Source: Akkermansia muciniphila (GTDB lineage Bacteria; Verrucomicrobiota; Verrucomicrobiia; Verrucomicrobiales; Akkermansiaceae). Taken from it: a stretch of 37,274 nt of DNA. Positions 4,322 to 37,274 of this stretch are shown here, one piece after another. The DNA lies in the NCBI GenBank assembly GCA_945888515.1, contig CAMDAD010000029.1, forward strand, positions 1-37,274. The letters run 5' to 3'. The number at the start of each line of letters is the position of its first letter. Within the stretch, counting starts at the first letter, position 1. The position numbers were made by a program, and so were the translations under genes. The notes under the pieces are model-generated. The model was not told the origin of the DNA, made no database searches, and saw nothing but the letters and a program-made list of their open reading frames with translations.

Positions 4322-5272
4322 CTACTGGACCTTATATCCGAGGCGCAGCGCGCAATCCTTCATGATTCCCGACTCCCAATCAGGTCGGCGTGGGCAAAGC
4401 GGATGCGGGTCCGAGGAAGGGATACGGCCTAACAAATGCTGAAACACGGCACAACTGTGCTTGTAGGCAGGAACTGCTGCACGGAAGCCGACATTGCCAA
4501 GATACTGGAGCGCATCATTGAGTTCGGCGTAGCGCTCGTCGCCATTTTCCCAGTAAGCATCACGCTCCGCGAATTTTTCTGGACAAAACGCGGCCAAGCC
4601 TAACAGATAATCGGAACCATATTCGACCATATCGATGCCGAGATCATTTCCCGTAAAGACCATGAACTCCGGCCGCACCTCGTCGCGGATTTGCAAACGT
4701 CGCAGTTCCTGACCGCGGTCAAGTGACGAATGCTTCATTCCTTTCAATGCGGGAATACGCATCAATCCGCGCACTGTTTCCTCATCGAAAATCATTCCGT
4801 TAGGTGCGAACATGCGACCGAGCTCGAAGCCGAAGACCGACTCGTAGTCCTCGCATACTTTCGCATACAGATCGACAATCTGCTGCGCCGACCAGTCGTG
4901 AAAACGGGTCGTCTGGAATAAAATGGGAGTGCCGCCAAAGCTCACGATCTCATCCATTTCGCGACGATAGAGATCGACCAAGTCACCTTCTTTCCCTTCG
5001 ACAAATGCCCCTGCGGTGAAATCGCGACGGCCCGCGATCACCTCCTGCGTCCAGCGCAGCACCTGTGTGCGTTCGGCGGCGGTGATGTAGTTTGCGTAGC
5101 CGGTGTCCATGTTGACAGCACAGCCGAGGCCAGCGGCGGTAGTGCGCTCCACGGCTTCACGAAATGCGTTTTCCGCGATGCGTCCATCCTTTTCAAAAGG
5201 CAACAGACAAGCGGCGTAACCGGTGATCTTGCGACGGAATTTTTTGGCGTGGTGACGATCTTCCAAAGACAT
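4322..5272 (-). CDS. DapA-family (dihydrodipicolinate synthase-like) aldolase
   Basis: 316 residues from the chosen ATG at 5272, which is preceded on its strand by an AAGGAAAG Shine-Dalgarno about 8 bases upstream; a longer frame to 5353 would run into the preceding RDD gene. Seen: GYAACLLPFEKDGRI and AFREAVERTTAAGLG as in the first barrel turns, and an LKGMKHSS strand where Lys180 fits the Schiff-base lysine of the class I pyruvate-aldolase barrel. The tyrosine expected in the preceding strand of DapA is not visible (FELGRMFAPNG instead), so it is not a lysine-biosynthesis enzyme in any simple sense. A keto-sugar-acid aldolase or dehydratase is more likely, feeding or fed by the isomerase and oxidoreductase downstream. 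Confidence 0.82.
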   Translation of the reverse strand: MSLEDRHHAKKFRRKITGYAACLLPFEKDGRIAENAFREAVERTTAAGLGCAVNMDTGYANYITAAERTQVLRWTQEVIAGRRDFTAGAFVEGKEGDLVDLYRREMDEIVSFGGTPILFQTTRFHDWSAQQIVDLYAKVCEDYESVFGFELGRMFAPNGMIFDEETVRGLMRIPALKGMKHSSLDRGQELRRLQIRDEVRPEFMVFTGNDLGIDMVEYGSDYLLGLAAFCPEKFAERDAYWENGDERYAELNDALQYLGNVGFRAAVPAYKHSCAVFQHLLGRIPSSDPHPLCPRRPDWESGIMKDCALRLGYKVQ

Positions 5273-29142: not shown

Positions 29143-30726
29143 ATGCGTCTTTTACGCTTCATTTTTTTATTTACGTCATTATTTTACGCACCATCGCTTT
29201 TCGCGAACGAAGGTGATGATAAACCGGAGGATATCGAATTTCGCCGACAATCTGTCACGCGTTTGATCTTCGATGAGAGCCATCGAATACCCCTAAGTTC
29301 CCTGCGCCCGGCTAAGGTAATCGATCTCGATCTGATGCATCCGGAGCTGCTTGCCGATTCGAGTCTGCGTTGGGATTTTGAGGATGCTTATCTCAAAGGA
29401 AGCTCACCCCAGAAGAGAGCATCTTCGCTTCGGTGGGTGGGAGGCTTCAATCCCTTTGCGACCTACGATCTGGAATTGCATCAAGCTACGGGCGATGGCG
29501 CGATCGCCATGACTTTCCAACACGCCAGCCGGGGTGACAGGTTAAGCGCGGGCTTGCAGTTCAAAGACGGAAAACCGGTGAAGCTCACCTGGAACATTCT
29601 TTCCGCTGGTGCCGCAGTGCCGGAAAAAACATGGACTGTTCCTCCGGGAATCTCCTTGAAGGGTCTAACCCTGCGCGCCCAAATGTCGGCCGTAGGAGTG
29701 AATTTGTTTCTCGAATCTGAAGGCAAATCAACGCTCATCGGCTTTTCGGATTTTGCCAAACAGATGGACCTGAGAGAGCGAAGCAGAATCCAACGAATGG
29801 ACTTTGCCATCCAAACAGAACTTCAGGCCGATGCGCAGATCATGATCAAACAAGCCTCATCGTATCTCTCCCCGGGTTCGGGTCAGGCGGATATCCGTGC
29901 GATCACAGATGAAGAAGGAAGGCCTCTGCTCGAAGACGGGCGCCTCTGGTTGACGATGACCTTGCGCGGACGCGCCTTGCCGCACCCGCTTCAGGGAGTT
30001 TTTTCCCTCAACCCATCTGTCTTCGACCTGCGGTTCGAAGGTGTCATCGTTTTTGACATGGGTGATGGACTTTTCCGCAACGAATTGGCCTCACACCTGT
30101 TCCGCGACTCCAAGACGGGCGAGTGGCGCGGCTGGACCACCGGTTTCAGCGCTCTCGGAGGAGCCGGCAAAACCGAGGAAAAAACCATACTGGGCGTGTC
30201 TTCCACACGAGATCCACGCAAGGGATTTTCCATCATGAAAGCCCGCCCCATCGGCATCGCCGGTGCCCACGAAGACCCACACGGTATCTATGATAAAGAA
30301 GCGGGAAAATGGCGACTGCTTCTCTGCGAACACGGGAAAAACTATCGCGCGGGCATGTGGCAAAGCGATCACTGGGACCGTGGCTTCACCCGATTGGCTG
30401 GCCCCGTGGAAATGGATAGCACGGGCACCATGATTCAGCAAATCGGCGCGAAACGATACGCCCTTTTTGGCAGCGCGGATCGGAAAATTTACATCCGCAG
30501 CTATCCCGATCTCGGACCAGTAGGCGAGTTACAAATTTCACTACCTCCCTGGAATGAAGGAAACGGCTCGAGAATCTGGCCGAATGTCATTCCACTCCCC
30601 GAGGGATACCCCGCCCCCTACATTGCCCTGATGATGGACCGAGTCAACTTCCCAGAAATGCCGAAACCCAACTGGACCTATGGCGCGCTCTACCTTTATC
30701 ATGGTCACGTTTTGAAGAAAGACTGA
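29143..30726 (+). CDS. Secreted protein, possibly with a C-terminal glycosidase-like propeller
   Basis: 527 residues with a signal peptide (about 1-21, ending ...PSLFA-NE). The N-terminal half looks like a jelly-roll: DLELHQATGDGAIAMTFQHAS, LSAGLQFKDGKPVKLTWNILS and so on. The C-terminal half repeats WEP-like blades such as RDSKTGEWRGWTTGFS, EDPHGIYDKEAGKWRLLLCEHGKNYRAGMWQSDHWDRGFTRL and KRYALFGSADRKIYIRSYPDLG, reminiscent of five-bladed GH43/GH32-type propellers. No catalytic acids could be assigned. It follows the epimerase by 47 bases, so a shared transcript is likely. A carbohydrate-active or binding role is inferred from context only. Confidence 0.65.
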   Translation: MRLLRFIFLFTSLFYAPSLFANEGDDKPEDIEFRRQSVTRLIFDESHRIPLSSLRPAKVIDLDLMHPELLADSSLRWDFEDAYLKGSSPQKRASSLRWVGGFNPFATYDLELHQATGDGAIAMTFQHASRGDRLSAGLQFKDGKPVKLTWNILSAGAAVPEKTWTVPPGISLKGLTLRAQMSAVGVNLFLESEGKSTLIGFSDFAKQMDLRERSRIQRMDFAIQTELQADAQIMIKQASSYLSPGSGQADIRAITDEEGRPLLEDGRLWLTMTLRGRALPHPLQGVFSLNPSVFDLRFEGVIVFDMGDGLFRNELASHLFRDSKTGEWRGWTTGFSALGGAGKTEEKTILGVSSTRDPRKGFSIMKARPIGIAGAHEDPHGIYDKEAGKWRLLLCEHGKNYRAGMWQSDHWDRGFTRLAGPVEMDSTGTMIQQIGAKRYALFGSADRKIYIRSYPDLGPVGELQISLPPWNEGNGSRIWPNVIPLPEGYPAPYIALMMDRVNFPEMPKPNWTYGALYLYHGHVLKKD

Positions 30727-31291: not shown

Positions 31292-33211
31292 ATGATAACA
31301 ACACCCTTCCGCTCCTATACGACATGCGCCATTTTCTTCGCTTTGCCTTTCTTTCTCTGCGAGATCCATGCGCAGGCACCTGAAAAAAAACCATTAGACT
31401 CATCACCAATACAGGGAAAGAGCGAAATGGAATCCGAGGAGAAACAGGAAAACGATCGCATCACCGCAAAATTGAAAGCGATTGTGATTCCCGTGCTAGA
31501 GTTTGAAGATACAAGCCTTGAGGATGCAGTAGATTTTTTGCGCACACGAGCAGAAGAACTCGATTCGACCACAGAGGTTCAGGCGGACAAGGGGGTGAAT
31601 TTTGTGGTGCGCTCTGCCAGAAACTCACCACAAGGCCAGGCTGTTCCGACCATCCGCTCACTCAAACTCAAAAATGTGACATTGGCAAATGCCTTGCAAC
31701 TCATGTGCGAAGGCGTCGGTTACAAATATTCCGCCGCGCAATCCTCGGTGATCTTGGAGCCCGAAGTAACCCCAGTCCCTCCAGCACTGGCGCCGACCCC
31801 GGTTATTCCTGCCCCAGCTACCGCGCCAGCATCAACGCCGTCGGTAGCATTTCAATCATCCGATCTCTCTAAAGCCTTATCCCCTCTGGTAAAGCCGGAC
31901 ATCTCTTCCGCCAAATTGGTGCTCTCGTATTTACAACAATTGGCTGAGAGTAAAAGTGGTGCGGAAAAAGTTGCTACACTACAGGTAGCTAGTGTCATCA
32001 AAAACGCATTCACGGCGGATTTCGCAGTGGCTACAAAAACAAAGGACTTGGAGAAAGCGGAAGCAGAGGCAATCCGACAAGAAAAGATCGCAGCAGACTG
32101 GATGACACCTAATGCATTCGGTCGTGTCAACGAGCTCGCATCAAGAGCCTCGCTGGTGAAAGCTGACGAAATTAGAAAAAAAGCCATGGCTGATTTGATC
32201 GATGCGCGCGAGAAGTTGATTCTTCAACTCCGCGATGCCGATGCCACCATTCTCATCTATCACAAGAAAAATGACCTGAATGTCGTCGCGCTTCTCGCGA
32301 CTACCATGCTGATCATCAATGAGCGCTCGCTACCTGAAGATGCCTACCGTCCTTCATTCACGCGTGCGCAGATCGCCGCATTGAACCAGTTTTCCCACTT
32401 TCGTGATGAGTGGCTGGCAGAAGCACAAAATGCGGAAAAATCGGAAAATTACGAGAAAGCCATCCATCTCTACGGCAAGGCGCGCGATGAAGAAGCACGC
32501 AAGCGATGCGCCAATCTTTTGGCGGCGAATTTGGAAGCGCAGAAGTTGTTTGGCTCCGCCTTGGAATACTACGAAATGGCCGGCAATCATGCCAAGGCGG
32601 GCGAAATCCGCAAAAACAACCCGACCTTGCTGGCGGATCAGTTCAAAGTGCTGACACCCGATGAACTTTACGCGAAGATTGCACCCTGCTGCGTGAGGAT
32701 TACAGATGGGAAAGGACACGGCACCGGTTTTTTATTCAGAAGAGGCGGATATATCCTTACCAATAAACATGTGATCGGCAACGGTCAAAACCTCACAGTC
32801 AAATTTGATGATACTAGCTCCTATCCCGCCAAACTTATTGCAACCTCTCAGGACTACGACTTGGCTATCATCAAAATTGAACGGGAAGATCACCCTGTCA
32901 TTGGCTTCCGCACACAGGAGGTGAAAATTGGACTGAACGTGTCTCTTGTCGGCTTTCCAGAAGTTGACTTGCCTACTTCAACAATGAATTCTGGACTGAT
33001 TTCTAATACGGATCGAACATTTCGCGACAATCCCGTTTATCAGTTAGATGTCTCAGTTAATCACGGCAACAGTGGTGGTCCCGTCGTGGATCAAAATGGT
33101 CAGTTAGTCGGAGTTGTGACATTTACTTTAAATGATTTCGACAAGGACAAATTCAACTTCGCCATCCAAGTCGGAACTGTCGCAGAATTCGTCCAAGAGA
33201 ACATGAAATAG
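31292..33211 (+). CDS. Exported protease with STN-like N-terminal domain and trypsin-fold C-terminus
   Basis: 639 residues. Signal peptide about 1-27 (FFALPFFLCEIHA). Residues ~65-155 resemble a secretin/TonB short N-terminal (STN) domain (PVLEFEDTSLEDAVDFLRTRAEE... LKLKNVTLANALQLMCEGVGYKYS). A proline/alanine linker follows, then a helical, partly coiled-coil and TPR-like region (~200-460). Residues ~465-639 are a trypsin-like fold: GTGFLFRRGGYILTNKHVIG with His493, YDLAIIKI with Asp523, and NHGNSGGPVVDQNG with Ser594. All three triad residues are present. It resembles HtrA/DegP but has no PDZ domain. Likely a periplasmic protease, perhaps acting on or with a secretin-like pore. hsdM starts 90 bases after it on the same strand; no functional link is shown. 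Confidence 0.88.
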   Translation: MITTPFRSYTTCAIFFALPFFLCEIHAQAPEKKPLDSSPIQGKSEMESEEKQENDRITAKLKAIVIPVLEFEDTSLEDAVDFLRTRAEELDSTTEVQADKGVNFVVRSARNSPQGQAVPTIRSLKLKNVTLANALQLMCEGVGYKYSAAQSSVILEPEVTPVPPALAPTPVIPAPATAPASTPSVAFQSSDLSKALSPLVKPDISSAKLVLSYLQQLAESKSGAEKVATLQVASVIKNAFTADFAVATKTKDLEKAEAEAIRQEKIAADWMTPNAFGRVNELASRASLVKADEIRKKAMADLIDAREKLILQLRDADATILIYHKKNDLNVVALLATTMLIINERSLPEDAYRPSFTRAQIAALNQFSHFRDEWLAEAQNAEKSENYEKAIHLYGKARDEEARKRCANLLAANLEAQKLFGSALEYYEMAGNHAKAGEIRKNNPTLLADQFKVLTPDELYAKIAPCCVRITDGKGHGTGFLFRRGGYILTNKHVIGNGQNLTVKFDDTSSYPAKLIATSQDYDLAIIKIEREDHPVIGFRTQEVKIGLNVSLVGFPEVDLPTSTMNSGLISNTDRTFRDNPVYQLDVSVNHGNSGGPVVDQNGQLVGVVTFTLNDFDKDKFNFAIQVGTVAEFVQENMK

Positions 33212-33301: not shown

Positions 33302-34780
33302 ATGATCACTGGCGAAATCAAATCCAAAGTCGACCGCATCTGGGACACCCTATGGTCCGGCGGCATTTCCAATCCGCTTACCATCATCGAGCAGCTCACC
33401 TACCTGCTCTTCCTCAAGCGCTTGGACGAGCTCCACACGCTCAAGGAGAACAAGGCGAACCGCCTCAAGAAACCCATCGAAGATCCCATTTTCACGCCGC
33501 AGCAGGACAAGCTCCGCTGGTCACGCTTCAAGGAAAGCTCCCCGGAAGAAATGTTCACCACCGTTCGCGATCATGCCTTTCCGTTTATCAAGACCCTCGG
33601 CCAGTCTGCCAACGGCGAAGGCGGTAGCACCTACAGCCAACACATGAAGGACGCCACCTTCATGATGCCTACGCCCCGCGTTCTCGCCAATATCGTCGAT
33701 CAGCTCGACGCCATCGAGATGGCCGATAGCGACACCAAGGGCGACCTCTACGAATACATGCTCGGGAAAATCGCCAGCGCCGGGCAGAACGGCCAGTTCC
33801 GCAGCCCGCGCCACATCATCCAGCTGATGGTCGATATGACCGCTCCCACGCCCAAGGATAAGATCTGTGATCCCGCCTGCGGCACCGCCGGATTCCTCGT
33901 CGCCTCCTCCGAATATCTTCACACCCACCACAGCGAAACCATCTACAAAGATGCCGCCGCCCGACGCCGTTTCAATGAGGGCACCTTCCACGGCTACGAT
34001 TTCGATTCCACCATGCTCCGCATCGGCAGCATGAACATGCTTCTCCACGGTGTGGAAAACCCGGACATCCGCTACAAGGACTCGCTGGCCGAGAGCGATG
34101 AGGACGATACGGAAAAATACTCCCTCATCCTCGCCAATCCCCCCTTCGCAGGCAGTCTCGATTACGAGTCAACCGCCAAGGACCTCCAGCGCATGGTCAA
34201 GACCAAGAAAACCGAGCTGCTCTTCATGGCACTCTTTCTGCGCATTCTCCAGACCGGTGGCCGCGCCGCTGTTATCGTGCCGGATGGCGTGCTCTTCGGC
34301 TCGTCCAATGCCCACCAGCAGATCCGCCAGATGCTTGTCGAGGAGCAGAAACTCGATGCCGTCATCTCCATGCCCTCCGGCGTCTTCAAGCCCTACGCCG
34401 GCGTCTCCACCGCCATCCTCTTTTTCACCAAGACCAACTCCGGCGGCACCGACCACGTCTGGTTCTACGACATGCAGGCCGATGGCTTCTCGCTCGACGA
34501 CAAGCGCACCCCGCAGCCCGACAAGTCCGACCTCCCCGACATCCTGAAGCGCTGGCAAAATCGCGACAAAGAAAAATCCCGCGCCCGCACCGACCAAAGT
34601 TTCCTCGTGCCCAAGGCCGACATCGTCGCCAACAACTACGACCTCTCGCTCAACCGCTACAAGGAAGTCGTCCATGAAACCGTCGAGCACGATTCACCGA
34701 AGAAAATTCTCACCCGCCTCGCCAAGCTCGAAGACGAGATCGCTCAGGGCAGAAAAGAACTGGAGGGCTTGCTAAAATGA
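33302..34780 (+). CDS. hsdM: Type I restriction-modification methyltransferase subunit HsdM
   Basis: 492 residues, normal for the family. It methylates adenine at the site chosen by HsdS and is a core of the HsdRMS restriction complex. Seen: the N-terminal helical HsdM domain (IWDTLWSGGISNPLTIIEQLTYLLFLKRLDE), SAM-binding motif I CDPACGTAGFL at about residue 190, and catalytic NPPF at residues 279-282, as in N6-adenine methyltransferases. The last 19 residues ([19 protein letters not shown]) form the C-terminal helix. Their 60-base coding segment holds a strong GGAGGG Shine-Dalgarno nine bases before an ATGA stop/start overlap, and it recurs twice downstream. The gene is the first of an operon invaded by a transposase and palindromic blocks. 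hsdS and hsdR are not in the window. Confidence 0.96.
   Translation: MITGEIKSKVDRIWDTLWSGGISNPLTIIEQLTYLLFLKRLDELHTLKENKANRLKKPIEDPIFTPQQDKLRWSRFKESSPEEMFTTVRDHAFPFIKTLGQSANGEGGSTYSQHMKDATFMMPTPRVLANIVDQLDAIEMADSDTKGDLYEYMLGKIASAGQNGQFRSPRHIIQLMVDMTAPTPKDKICDPACGTAGFLVASSEYLHTHHSETIYKDAAARRRFNEGTFHGYDFDSTMLRIGSMNMLLHGVENPDIRYKDSLAESDEDDTEKYSLILANPPFAGSLDYESTAKDLQRMVKTKKTELLFMALFLRILQTGGRAAVIVPDGVLFGSSNAHQQIRQMLVEEQKLDAVISMPSGVFKPYAGVSTAILFFTKTNSGGTDHVWFYDMQADGFSLDDKRTPQPDKSDLPDILKRWQNRDKEKSRARTDQSFLVPKADIVANNYDLSLNRYKEVVHETVEHDSPKKILTRLAKLEDEIAQGRKELEGLLK
34721..34780 (+). repeat. Coupling cassette copy T1 (native 3' end of hsdM)
   Basis: The final 60 bases of hsdM, from a GCC codon to the stop. 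It encodes [19 protein letters not shown], has GGAGGG at 34762-34767, and ends in ATGA. By eye it matches T2 (35717-35776) at about 49 of 60 and T3 (37023-37082) at about 49 of 60 positions. Confidence 0.85.
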
Positions 34781-35007
34781 CCATGCATCGCCAATTCTTC
34801 CGGCCCAACGGGCCTGCATCCCTCAGCCCAGGGCATCGCCCTGGGACTGCAACGCCAGCAGATTGGCGGCCTGAAGGGTCGCGATATCGGTTGGCATGGT
34901 TCGGAACCCCACAGCATCGCTCCCCGTTGGGGCGCCGTGCATTGATCGACATGATCCCAGGGCGATGCCCTGGGCTGAGGAATCATGCGCCTTTGGCGCG
35001 GACGTAA
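34777..35007 (+). CDS. Possible palindrome-encoded peptide coupled to hsdM (block R1)
   Basis: A 76-codon frame that starts in the ATGA overlapping the hsdM stop and stops at 35007. It is encoded by the palindromic block: FRPNGPASLSPGHRPG and [14 protein letters not shown] words. The same words recur in the frames of blocks R2 and R4, and R3 keeps a divergent version. An excellent Shine-Dalgarno lies in T1. It may still be merely an open reading of repeats; no protein family is known to me. Confidence 0.3.
   Translation: MTMHRQFFRPNGPASLSPGHRPGTATPADWRPEGSRYRLAWFGTPQHRSPLGRRALIDMIPGRCPGLRNHAPLART
34827..34974. repeat. Palindromic block R1 (148-base core)
   Basis: Bounded by CCCAGGGCatcGCCCTGGG (34827-34845) and its exact reverse complement CCCAGGGCgatGCCCTGGG (34956-34974). 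Inside are GGCCTGAAGGGTC-like and CCCCgttGGGG palindromes. The loop change atc/gat occurs in both boundary palindromes of this block only, so the two ends changed together. It lies upstream of the transposase. Confidence 0.85.
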
Positions 35008-35028
35008 TCACCACCTATCCACACCACC

Positions 35029-35481
35029 ATGCCTCAATCTCTCTCACGCATCCTCATCCACATGGTTTTCAGCACGAAAAACCGGGAACCAGTCCTCACG
35101 CCGGAAATCCGCACGGAAATGCATCCTTACCTAGCTGGCGTTCTCGACAACATCGATTGTCCTTCTCTGCGCGTCGGTGGCGTTGCGGATCATGTGCACC
35201 TGTTCTTTGGTCTTTCACGAACGAAAAGCCCGGCAGAAGTTGTCGAGATCGTGAAAACCAGTTCATCGAAATGGATCAAAACGAAAGGCGCACCATTTGC
35301 AAGGTTCCATTGGCAAGCCGGTTATGGCGCGTTTTCCGTCAGCCAGTCCGATGCAGACACCGTGGTCAATTACGTGGCGAACCAGGAAAAGCATCACCAA
35401 AAAATGACATTTCAGCACGAATATCGAAAATTGTTAGAAAAATACCGTATCACCTTCGATGAAAAATATGTCTGGGATTGA
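35029..35481 (+). CDS. IS200-like / REP-associated tyrosine transposase (Y1, HUH)
   Basis: 150 residues, the usual size of TnpA of IS200/IS605 and of small RAYT proteins. The HUH motif is VADHVHLFF with His55 and His57, and the candidate nucleophile is Tyr115 in DTVVNYVANQEKHHQ. The MPQSLSRILIHMVFSTKNREP start is the common N-terminus of this subfamily. Such enzymes cut single-stranded DNA at hairpins, and RAYTs act on REP palindromes. Here the gene sits between two copies of a palindromic block (R1 and R2), which fits a RAYT with its own substrate repeats. It interrupts the hsdM operon but keeps its orientation. Both ends of the gene look intact, so it may be functional. Confidence 0.9.
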   Translation: MPQSLSRILIHMVFSTKNREPVLTPEIRTEMHPYLAGVLDNIDCPSLRVGGVADHVHLFFGLSRTKSPAEVVEIVKTSSSKWIKTKGAPFARFHWQAGYGAFSVSQSDADTVVNYVANQEKHHQKMTFQHEYRKLLEKYRITFDEKYVWD

Positions 35482-35485
35482 ACCA

Positions 35486-35776
35486 ATGATCCAATGGCCC
35501 AACGGGCCAACATCCCTCAGCCCAGGGCAACGCCCTGGGTGGGCACCGCCCACAGATTGGCGGCCTGAAGGGCCGCGATCGGGGTTGGCGTTATTCGGCG
35601 CACAACCGTATCGCGCACCGTTGGCGCGCGGGATTGTAACGGGCTCAGACCCAGGGCGTTGCCCTGGGCTGAGGAATGATACACCGTTGGTGCTGAAGAA
35701 TATCATGAAGAATAACGCCCAGCTCGAAGACGAAATCGCCAATGGCAGAAATGAACGGGAGGGCTTATTGCAATGA
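35486..35776 (+). CDS. Possible palindrome-encoded peptide ending in cassette T2 (block R2)
   Basis: A 96-codon frame from ATG 35486, five bases after the transposase stop. It reads across block R2 ([16 protein letters not shown]... [11 protein letters not shown]) and, still in frame, into the copied hsdM tail, ending at 35776. A shorter start is the ATG at 35705, giving a 23-residue peptide made almost wholly of the tail (QLEDEIANGRNEREGLL). Either way the stop overlaps the DUF1016 start as ATGA. Coding status is uncertain. Confidence 0.3.
   Translation: MIQWPNGPTSLSPGQRPGWAPPTDWRPEGPRSGLALFGAQPYRAPLARGIVTGSDPGRCPGLRNDTPLVLKNIMKNNAQLEDEIANGRNEREGLLQ
35521..35668. repeat. Palindromic block R2 (148-base core)
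   Basis: Bounded by CCCAGGGCaacGCCCTGGG (35521-35539) and its exact reverse complement (35650-35668, loop gtt). Inside are GGCCTGAAGGGCC and a CGCGCaccgttgGCGCG hairpin. A GGCCCaacGGGCC palindrome lies just before it and a CACCgttGGTG hairpin just after. It has the same core length as R1 and R4. Confidence 0.85.
35717..35776 (+). repeat. Coupling cassette copy T2 (duplicated hsdM tail)
   Basis: 60 bases encoding AQLEDEIANGRNEREGLLQ, with GGGAGGG at 35757-35763 and ATGA at its end; the ATG at 35773 is the start of the DUF1016 gene. It is about 80% identical to the real hsdM end, with most changes silent or conservative. It is preceded by a ttggtgctgaa-type sequence shared with T3 but not T1. 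Confidence 0.85.
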
Positions 35777-36789
35777 ACGAATCTCTTTCCACCACCGACG
35801 ATTCCTTTTTCCGCTCCGTTCGTGAAATCCTCGCCGAGGCCCGTCGCAAGGCGGCCACCAGTGTCAATTTCATCATGGTGGAAGCCTACTGGCGCATCGG
35901 TGAACGCATCGTTTTGGAGGAACAAGGCGGGCAGTCCAAAGCTACCTACGGTCGTGAACTCATACGAGAACTGTCCAAGCAATTAGGCCTAGAATTCGGC
36001 AAGGGATTTTCCATGGCAAATTTGAAGAATTTCCGGCAATTCTACCTCACCTATCCTGACTTAGGAAAAAGCTACGCACTGCGTAGCGAATTGGGTTGGA
36101 CGCATTACCGTCTGATCATGCGTATCGAGGAACCCAAAGCCCGGGAATACTATGTCCATGAGGCAGCCACGCAAGGGTGGACCAGCCGACAGCTCGAACG
36201 CAACATCCGCAGCGGTTGGCACCAACGACTCCTCAAGGCCCCCGAACCAGTACAGCAATCAGTTTCTCTCACTCCAGAAAACCTCCTCAAAGACCCCTAC
36301 ATTCTCGAATTCCTCAACCTCCCCGAAGACACCAAACATCACGAGCGCGACATCGAGACCGCCCTCATCGATAACTTGCAGAGCTTTCTTCTCGAACTCG
36401 GCAGGGGCTTCTCTTTCGTCGGTCGCCAGTTCCGCATCAGCTCGGAAACCTCCCACTTTTACATCGACCTCGTATTCTACAACTACCTGCTGAAGTGTTT
36501 CGTGCTGCTCGACCTCAAGATCGACAAACTCGCGCACCAAGACATCGGACAAATGGACATGTATGTCCGCATGTTCGATGATCTGAAACGTGGCGAGGAT
36601 GACAATCCCACACTCGGCATCATCCTCTGCGCCGACAAGGACGAGACCATCGTCCGCTACTCCGTGCTCAACGAAAATGCCCAACTCTTCGCGGCCAAAT
36701 ACCTAACGGTTCTTCCCAGCGAAGAGGAACTCGCCCGCGAACTCGAAGCCCGCCATGTGTTCGACCTACCTGAAGAAGACGCACCATGA
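35773..36789 (+). CDS. DUF1016 (YhcG-type) PD-(D/E)XK nuclease-like protein
   Basis: 338 residues, normal for the family. The N-terminal DUF1016_N helical domain is seen in VNFIMVEAYWRIGERIVLEEQGGQSKATYGRELIRELSKQLGLEFGKGFSMANLKNFRQFY and LGWTHYRLIMRI. The C-terminal nuclease-like domain has FSFVGRQFRISSETSHFYIDLVFYN (Asp232) and LLDLKIDKL (Asp247-Leu-Lys249), the PD-(D/E)XK core with D-x-K in place of the usual E-x-K. Such genes are often found between hsdM and hsdS; they may act as accessory nucleases of restriction loci, but their role is not settled. Its start overlaps the stop of cassette T2 and its stop overlaps the start of the next frame (ATGA in both cases). Confidence 0.93.
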   Translation: MNESLSTTDDSFFRSVREILAEARRKAATSVNFIMVEAYWRIGERIVLEEQGGQSKATYGRELIRELSKQLGLEFGKGFSMANLKNFRQFYLTYPDLGKSYALRSELGWTHYRLIMRIEEPKAREYYVHEAATQGWTSRQLERNIRSGWHQRLLKAPEPVQQSVSLTPENLLKDPYILEFLNLPEDTKHHERDIETALIDNLQSFLLELGRGFSFVGRQFRISSETSHFYIDLVFYNYLLKCFVLLDLKIDKLAHQDIGQMDMYVRMFDDLKRGEDDNPTLGIILCADKDETIVRYSVLNENAQLFAAKYLTVLPSEEELARELEARHVFDLPEEDAP

Positions 36790-37082
36790 AACAACGACCA
36801 TTCTCTAGGCCTGAAGGGCCGAAATACGCTAGCCTAGGGCAACGCCCTAGGTTTGGCCGCACAAGAACATTGAGGCCTGTAGGGCCGGCACATCAGTCAG
36901 CGCACGGCGGTTGTTCCGACCCCTTGGGGCTTGGGGATTTTGGGTGGAACTTCTTCCTAGGACGTCGCCCTAGGCTATCGTATGGCGCACCATTGGTGCT
37001 GAATAATTTCATGGCGCTTATCGCCAAGCTCGAAGACGAGATCGCAAAGGGTAGAAAAGAACGAGAGGGGGTGTTGGGATGA
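36786..37082 (+). CDS. Possible palindrome-encoded peptide ending in cassette T3 (block R3)
   Basis: A 98-codon frame starting in the ATGA that overlaps the DUF1016 stop. It crosses block R3 ([35 protein letters not shown]) and enters the copied hsdM tail in frame, ending at 37082. A shorter start is the ATG at 37011, giving 23 residues. R3 is the most diverged block, yet its core differs from the others by exactly six bases and the frame stays open. Real translation is unproven. Confidence 0.32.
36833..36974. repeat. Palindromic block R3, diverged (142-base core)
   Basis: Bounded by CCTAGGGCaacGCCCTAGG (36833-36851) and a near reverse-complement CCTAGGACgtcGCCCTAGG (36956-36974). Compared with R1, R2 and R4, the third base pair of the stem has changed from C-G to T-A on both arms, a compensatory change. 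Inner palindromes GGCCtgtaGGGCC and CCCCttGGGG, and a CACCattGGTG hairpin after it, match the layout of the other blocks. Confidence 0.8.
37023..37082 (+). repeat. Coupling cassette copy T3 (duplicated hsdM tail)
   Basis: 60 bases encoding [19 protein letters not shown], with GAGAGGGG at 37063-37070 and a terminal ATGA (ATG 37079). It matches T1 at about 49 and T2 at about 48 of 60 positions by eye, so the three copies are about equally distant from one another. Confidence 0.85.
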
Positions 37083-37274
37083 ATTCGCAGCAACCGCGGC
37101 CCAACGGGCCACCATCCCTCAGCCCAGGGCAACGCCCTGGGTGGGGAACGAGATTGGATGGGCGGCCTGAGGGGCCGCGATATGGGGTGGCGTGCTGCGG
37201 GGCGAACCGGTATCGCGCACCGTTGGCGCGCGGCATTGTGGTGGGCTCATACCCAGGGCGTTGCCCTGGGCTGA
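37079..37274 (+). CDS. Possible palindrome-encoded peptide, truncated by the window end (block R4)
   Basis: A frame that starts in the ATGA of cassette T3 and is open to the last base. It reads [16 protein letters not shown] and YPGRCPGL, nearly the same words as the R1 and R2 frames. What follows (another T copy, hsdS, or a stop) is outside the window. Low confidence as a real gene. Confidence 0.3.
37123..37270. repeat. Palindromic block R4 (148-base core)
   Basis: Bounded by CCCAGGGCaacGCCCTGGG (37123-37141) and its exact reverse complement (37252-37270, loop gtt). It carries the same inner GGCCtgagGGGCC and CGCGCaccgttgGCGCG hairpins as R2, which it resembles most. GGCCCaacGGGCC lies just before it. 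The downstream flank is cut off by the window. Confidence 0.85.

Follow-up and report, generated by a model that had tools for sequence, protein, structure and literature searches.

Copies of the hsdM end stand before other genes of a type I restriction-modification operon

We observed that the 3' end of hsdM, the methyltransferase gene of a type I restriction-modification operon in Akkermansia muciniphila, recurs further along the same operon. We consider it probable that this segment, here called T, is the start signal of the next gene, kept or copied so that termination-reinitiation can continue despite insertions. The window comprises all of contig CAMDAD010000029.1 (C29; 37,274 nucleotides, nt), one of 54 contigs of assembly GCA_945888515.1. 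It carries hsdM; hsdS and hsdR of the same operon lie on a second contig, C7 (Pfam, PADLOC). The first 74 bases of C7 equal the last 74 of C29, and the two contigs were joined on this overlap and on the gene order of relatives. Positions 1-184 of C7 hold the right arm of a palindromic block and then T4, a fourth copy directly before hsdS whose ATGA is the hsdS start. The operon order is thus hsdM, T1, [block 1, RAYT-like Y1 transposase gene, block 2], T2, DUF1016, [block 3], T3, [block 4], T4, hsdS and, further on, hsdR. Its features in the window are as follows.

33302-34780, forward strand: hsdM, type I DNA methyltransferase subunit, 492 amino acids (aa) (Pfam N6_Mtase 7e-65, HsdM_N 2e-18; PADLOC MTase_I 2e-198)
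34721-34780, forward strand: T1, the true hsdM tail, with Shine-Dalgarno (SD) sequence and ATGA (repeat family D4, alignment)
34777-35007, forward strand: 76-aa frame that opens in the T1 ATGA, crosses block 1 and stops 21 nt before the RAYT-like gene
34802-35002, unstranded: palindromic block 1 (families D1, D5, I2; 78% to block 2)
35029-35481, forward strand: RAYT-like Y1 (IS200-like) transposase gene, 150 aa, flanked by two blocks (Pfam Y1_Tnp 1.4e-23)
35459-35776, forward strand: 105-aa frame that crosses the RAYT stop and block 2 and ends at the T2 stop, with an in-frame ATG also at 35486
35496-35700, unstranded: palindromic block 2 (repeat families)
35717-35776, forward strand: T2, hsdM-tail copy whose ATGA starts DUF1016 (49/60 to T1)
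35773-36789, forward strand: DUF1016/YhcG PDDEXK nuclease, 338 aa (Pfam YhcG_C 3e-57, DUF1016_N 6e-44; PADLOC PDC-S02 2e-134)
36786-37082, forward strand: 98-aa frame that opens in the DUF1016 ATGA, crosses block 3 and ends at the T3 stop
36808-37002, unstranded: palindromic block 3 (families D2, D5, I8)
37023-37082, forward strand: T3, hsdM-tail copy (49/60 to T1)
37079-37273, forward strand: frame from the T3 ATGA through block 4, which on C7 ends at the T4 stop (101 aa) and overlaps the hsdS start
37098-37274, unstranded: palindromic block 4, interrupted by the contig end, with its right arm on C7

The original prediction, made from the letters of the window, described T1, T2 and T3 as three 60-base segments at these positions with about 80% identity. 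This is correct: repeat family D4 consists of exactly these three, and they match at 49/60 (T1-T2 and T1-T3) and 48/60 (T2-T3). As it also stated, an SD sequence (GGAGGG, in T3 AGAGGG) ends ~8 nt upstream of each ATGA, and a frame opens in every ATGA, namely the 76-aa frame at T1, DUF1016 at T2 and a frame running off the contig at T3. In both T2 and T3 an in-frame ATG lies 72 nt ahead of the stop's end, where the 72-base mini-ORF had been proposed. The differences between copies had been called mostly silent or conservative, which was not borne out: T1 and T2 differ by four silent and five replacement codons, and the ratio of nonsynonymous to synonymous differences among copies is well above that of true hsdM tails (see below). 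A search of the genome with the segment gave four matches, all at the window operon.

Tail copies recur at insertions between hsdM and hsdS

We compared 88 loci of this hsdM family (family 1), comprising 80 from named genomes, the window's own and nine from relatives, minus two repeats (L053 and L069, which duplicate L041 and L044). To locate hsdS we used a profile built from the loci themselves. The two genes adjoin directly in 69 loci, mostly with a 4-nt overlap (ATGA or GTGA), and are separated by an insert in 10; hsdS was not found in nine, one of which (L066) has T at the contig end. A copy of the hsdM end lies downstream in seven of the ten insert loci (the window, L041, L045, L050, L051, L052 and L061) and, at 40/60 identity to the last 60 nt of hsdM, in none of the 69 with a direct junction. 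L061 is from Thiofilum flexile DSM 14609, a gammaproteobacterium. Scanning 387 genomes of the phylum gave a follow-up set of 17 loci (two repeats), which added one insert with a copy (L134). Both sets combined give a copy in 8/14 insert loci, or 9/15 with L066, whose contig ends within hsdS.

Among the hsdM segments compared, recurrence at 40/60 is confined to the last one. In a set of 100 family-1 loci (99 distinct, since L135 repeats L068; L053, L069, L130, L131, L136 and four loci with none or <300 nt downstream were excluded), the last 60 nt of hsdM recur downstream at 40/60 or better in nine, and five neighbouring 60-nt hsdM segments in 0/100 each. At 36/60 the end recurs in ten loci vs 0, 0, 0, 2 and 0 for its neighbours. 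The idea that T2 and T3 are remnants of full extra hsdM copies was therefore rejected: no such copies were met, and the segment from -120 to -61 is among those that recur in 0/100. We also scanned 386 genomes of the order with a tail profile and found several copies in nine, all at hsd loci and all with a start behind them except in L051; among these multi-copy matches the segment was not seen at unrelated loci without a start codon. One of these arrays, L179, has lost hsdM and keeps four tail copies before hsdS, three of them preceded by a block.

Two side observations concern these loci. In L179 (G626 C47, minus strand, positions 4500 to 400), a tRNA-Leu-like sequence, recognised by eye, and a DUF3800 remnant precede the array of tail copies, blocks and transposase gene. 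In L043, 0-1100 after the hsdM stop, hsdS is apparently reduced to repeated 3' fragments between palindromic repeats.

A second hsdM family carries tail copies of its own

The copies, their ends and the frames that lead into them recur in a second, unrelated family. The L188 hsdM is 23% identical to family 1, and in its family the hsdM end overlaps hsdS by 11 nt where the genes are adjacent (L259-L261). Downstream of the L188 hsdM lie an NYN-domain gene, two tail copies, each with a block in front, and hsdS, and the homology of the tail copies ends sharply 66 nt before the stop. Family-2 tail copies were found in L188, L254, L255, L256, L257, L272, L276 and L299. The copy precedes hsdS behind an Abi_2 gene in L254, a nucleotidyltransferase and its substrate-binding partner in L255, and Gp49-like and HTH genes in L256; L257 likewise has a copy before hsdS. 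From 38 further family-2 loci we examined the 16 whose hsdS profile match lies away from hsdM, and three have clear copies: L272 (62/66), L276 (35/35) and L299 (34/39). The contig of the L188 operon also holds, at 4569-4692, half a block, a degenerate family-1 tail copy and a partial hsdS.

Inserted stretches commonly stay open into the tail copy

Between hsdM and hsdS, the inserts are DUF1016, DUF3800, Abi-like, NYN and toxin-antitoxin-like genes, RAYT-like transposase genes and palindromic blocks. We propose that the last ~15-60 bases of hsdM would also serve to start the next gene, with the SD sequence and the stop/start overlap letting the ribosome that ends HsdM begin HsdS. T2, T3 and T4 are copies of this end. 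Where DNA separates the two genes, one copy often forms the hsdM end and another stands in front of hsdS, here also before DUF1016; in other loci the inserted gene has its own overlap. The inserted stretch commonly holds an open frame from within the previous stop to the T stop, which would deliver the ribosome to the next overlap. The frames through the inserts are probably translated.

We assessed 27 copies outside hsdM, 18 of family 1 and nine of family 2. For 14, the T frame runs uninterrupted from a start whose overlap with the preceding stop measures 1 to 11 nt. These 14 are a list of eleven intervals (including T3 to T4) together with L256, L272 and L299, and ten pass through a palindromic block. 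All eleven intervals span a multiple of three from start to T stop; each has stops in the second frame, and 9/11 have them in the third. Dinucleotide shuffles of the intervals stay open with a probability of 0.02-0.55 each, times 1/3 for the frame. Of the 16 cases with such an overlap ahead of T, 14 feed T, the exceptions being L051 and L066. No joint p-value is given, because the list is post hoc, L051 and L066 open the hsdS frame instead of the T frame, and the intervals are partly homologous.

The other 13 copies are more varied. Three lie behind a transposase gene, with a frame that crosses its stop (window T2, L041 T2 and L179 Tb). In L061 the frame starts at an ATG 3 nt after the preceding stop, in L066 15 nt after it and in L188 T2 ~25 nt after it. 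L045, L052 Ta and L179 Ta lie behind DUF3800, and the remainder are L051, L257, L276 and the orphan at L188 4569-4692. As a weak control, consisting of short matches, we took block pieces outside hsd loci: of 14 matches of at least 70 nt in 16 stretches, eight carry a net indel of a length not divisible by three, and in four the corresponding frame contains a stop.

Chance would require that GC- and purine-rich gene ends look alike and that open frames are cheap. A single interval may indeed stay open with a probability of up to 0.55 in shuffles, and L064 reaches 36/60 without an insert. Control segments at 40/60 gave 0/100 and 0/38, and eleven intervals are in frame, which makes coincidence scarcely credible as the explanation.

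The stop/start signal looks kept while the peptide drifts

The length of the homology differs between copies: ~50 nt in L061 and L134, 62 in T2 and T3, 66 in L188, ~82 in L050, ~102 in L255 and 35 in L276. A fixed 60-base cassette was rejected on this ground, as the 5' homology boundary varies over ~35-102 nt. Among eleven of the 14 clade-1 copies (L041 T3, L051 T and L179 Td excluded), the ratio of nonsynonymous to synonymous differences (pN/pS) is 0.54, and 0.78 for the six that start with ATG; two sets of hsdM tails gave 0.13 and 0.29. The SD core is kept in 14/14 clade-1 copies and ATGA in 13/14, L051 being the exception. Because pN/pS is relaxed while the SD core and ATGA stay, it looks as if the nucleotide signal for ribosome binding and stop/start, rather than the peptide, is kept. 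Coupling would be what selection maintains.

If the peptide were functional instead, a C-terminal HsdM helix made in trans would bind HsdS and tune assembly. Passages of PMC3510504 set the HsdM C-terminus beside HsdS, and the T frames end in tail sequence and are mostly short, ~19-134 aa. The relaxed pN/pS of the copies (0.54-0.78 vs 0.13-0.29 in hsdM tails) and the little that L179 Td retains of the peptide speak against this, and we regard it as very improbable.

In the part that bears on this question, Huber et al. 2023 (PMC10666635) report that 15 nt from the end of an upstream gene are enough for coupling and that reinitiation is (almost) lost with gaps of ~20-38 nt. The kept overlaps fit the gap effect described there. 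RNA structure predictions for T regions and block 3 (five stretches) gave nothing beyond shuffles (z -0.99 to 1.09).

Tail copies occur with and without blocks and differ in origin

By blastn, no block lies between hsdM (or the last gene) and T in L045, L051, L061, L066, L255, L256, L272, L276, L299 and L052 Ta. Full-length blocks in the window's own genome matched only at the window operon; elsewhere there are only pieces of 43-57 nt. T as part of the palindromic block was rejected, given these ten block-free intervals and the block ends elsewhere in the genome that adjoin no T match. The proposal that the hsdM 3' end had been captured by or with the blocks and reused at insertions is thus borne out in part: the segment is the 3' end of an hsdM gene, the insertions separate operon genes and each copy ends at the overlap with the next gene or frame (except in L051). 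A portable, block-borne unit is not supported. Our scans of viral contigs found no relative. Relative G089 has 111 block matches, including a 140-nt piece away from hsd. In genome G000, other hsdM-like genes also have block-end palindromes only a few kb away, at C10:32-308 and C25:3408-3459 (L229, L130).

To our knowledge, transposition of the IS200/IS605 type makes no target duplication. This counts against T as an insertion scar, in which insertion of a block or RAYT unit would directly repeat ~50-60 target bases and T would mark the events. In its favour, the lone block of L134 has a T copy on either side, the two agreeing at 50 of their last 51 nt, and T1-block-RAYT-block-T2 and T3-block-T4 share a form. 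Copies also flank the ten block-free inserts, vary from ~35 to 102 nt and, on the right-hand side, end at the next start except in L051, and the SD sequence and ATGA stay while the peptide drifts. We consider a scar unlikely.

Of 105 hsdM tails compared, that of the resident hsdM matches best in L045, L061 and L134 and ties in L066; other clade-1 copies match clade tails generally. From this we infer at least four origins in family 1. The L254 copy matches its own hsdM narrowly best (58/66 vs 57). The T of L050 agrees with its own hsdM on the left, past the usual border, but not on the right, a pattern expected from recombination. The two adjacent block-T units of L041 are 91% identical over 300 columns including gaps, which suggests tandem duplication, and the junction of T1 and block 1 in the window (ATGACCATGCATCGCCAA) is similar to that of Tb and its block in L179 (ATGAACATGCACCGTCAA), suggesting that T copies have exchanged sequence. 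Copies would have spread by recombination and by tandem duplication of T-plus-block units.

T might also have come with hsdS, if hsdS genes swapped between loci carried the 3' end of a former hsdM partner. The L256 copy is closer to another hsdM subfamily (39/66 to L261, and by peptide also to the L258 tail) than to its own hsdM (31/66) and so may have arrived in this way; in L061 the T-hsdS junction is unlike the hsdM-DUF1016 junction. The resident hsdM is clearly the best match in L045, L061 and L134 and narrowly in L254, and T2 precedes DUF1016, not hsdS. Such an arrival is possible but doubtful; it concerns the origin of T and is compatible with T as a start signal.

Observations that weigh against a start signal

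Several results do not sit easily with a retained start signal. A copy is not required: at the thresholds used, the family-1 inserts L046, L062 and L115 and the follow-up inserts L139, L147 and L141 (a short one) have none. Ten of the 16 examined family-2 loci also lack a copy, several of them with an uncertain hsdS call; at the overlaps of L264, L277 and L281, also among the 16, by-eye resemblances of 17-27 nt were not above shuffles. Two Deinococcus plasmid loci with the order hsdM-DUF1016-hsdS (L300 and L302) are without a tail copy. The frame that opens in the DUF1016 ATGA leads, in L051 and L066, into hsdS instead of T, and the L051 copy has lost its stop. Behind DUF3800 the T frame starts ~148 nt (L045) and ~146 nt (L052 Ta) after the stop. 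The eleven-interval list was compiled after the frames had been seen, its intervals are partly homologous, and the clade-1 copies are related by descent. GC-rich blocks are stop-poor because of their composition, and L219, the longest block piece outside hsd loci, is open in the same frame without indels. The sufficiency of 15 nt in the cited part of PMC10666635 would make most T copies longer than coupling needs.

Some of these loci show features of their own. HsdS of L051 and L066 may carry an N-terminal extension from the DUF1016-ATGA frame. L300 and L302 keep overlaps at both DUF1016 junctions, possibly an alternative solution to the same problem. L141, at 0-107 after the hsdM stop, has a 37-aa frame with 4-nt overlaps on both sides, whose last 24 nt resemble its own hsdM end below threshold; this frame is suggestive.

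Comparison with known coupled genes and repeats

Mycobacterial interspersed repetitive units (MIRUs) were reportedly described by Supply et al. in 1997. Passages of a review (PMC12548453) present them as repeats that insert at start codons and bring a coupled frame, so the statement in the original prediction that no described element behaves in this way needs correcting. MIRUs have an internal frame with a stop/start overlap at both ends, as do T3 to T4 and ten further intervals. They insert at coupled gene junctions; the direct hsdM/hsdS junction of 69/88 relatives, mostly a 4-nt overlap, is predicted to be such a junction. They differ in that MIRUs are repeats with their own frame, whereas here the coupling end is copied from the resident hsdM 3' end and is not dispersed in the genome.

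Translational coupling of hsdM and hsdS is itself known (in PMC3510504, where it treats this pair). Coupled pairs that use termination-reinitiation, as far as the relevant parts of PMC3510504, PMC6728339 and PMC10666635 describe them, have the same stop/start overlap with the SD sequence inside the upstream gene; here the overlap, with predicted coupling, is multiplied and separated by inserts. Section 22 of PMC3510504 puts forward the hypothesis that type IB HsdS incorporates the HsdM tail. HsdM-tail DNA duplicated next to or in hsdS is common to both cases, but there the tail is fused into HsdS, whereas here it ends a separate frame whose T4 stop overlaps the hsdS start.

REPtrons, as treated in parts of PMC3733652, join RAYT genes with repetitive extragenic palindromes, which also occur inside coding regions, including the rickettsial palindromic elements. 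A Y1 transposase gene between palindromic blocks and palindromes in open frames are shared with the window operon; relative to those parts of the source, the difference is that the blocks here are placed between genes of the operon and attached to T copies. Among the open-licence papers listed by our literature searches, none reported copied hsdM tails before hsdS. Coupling, entry of the HsdM tail into hsdS (as a hypothesis) and coupled MIRU repeats are known.

Neighbouring genes

Upstream of hsdM lie a 527-aa protein without a Pfam match (29143-30726) and a 639-aa protein with a C-terminal trypsin-like domain (31292-33211). Between hsdS and hsdR on C7, our own reading of the frames gives candidate XRE/ImmA-like and PIN-like genes.

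The hsdM-hsdS junction as a possible docking slot

A wider reading, which we offer tentatively, takes the hsdM-hsdS junction as a docking slot for defence genes. Recombination at the tail copies would add, multiply and exchange modules, both defence genes and T-plus-palindrome units. Open frames through the palindromes and repeated stop/start signals would meanwhile keep a single ribosome moving from HsdM to HsdS and preserve the M:S ratio for any insert. If this is true, the coupling cassette would derive from the end of one of the host operon's own genes. Operons commonly contain overlapping gene pairs, and how inserts avoid silencing the second gene is rarely visible; the hsdM tail copies would be one solution that is legible and countable in sequence. 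The hsdM-hsdS junction is thereby indicated as a settling place of accessory defence genes, and tail copies before hsdS may be used to find such insertions.

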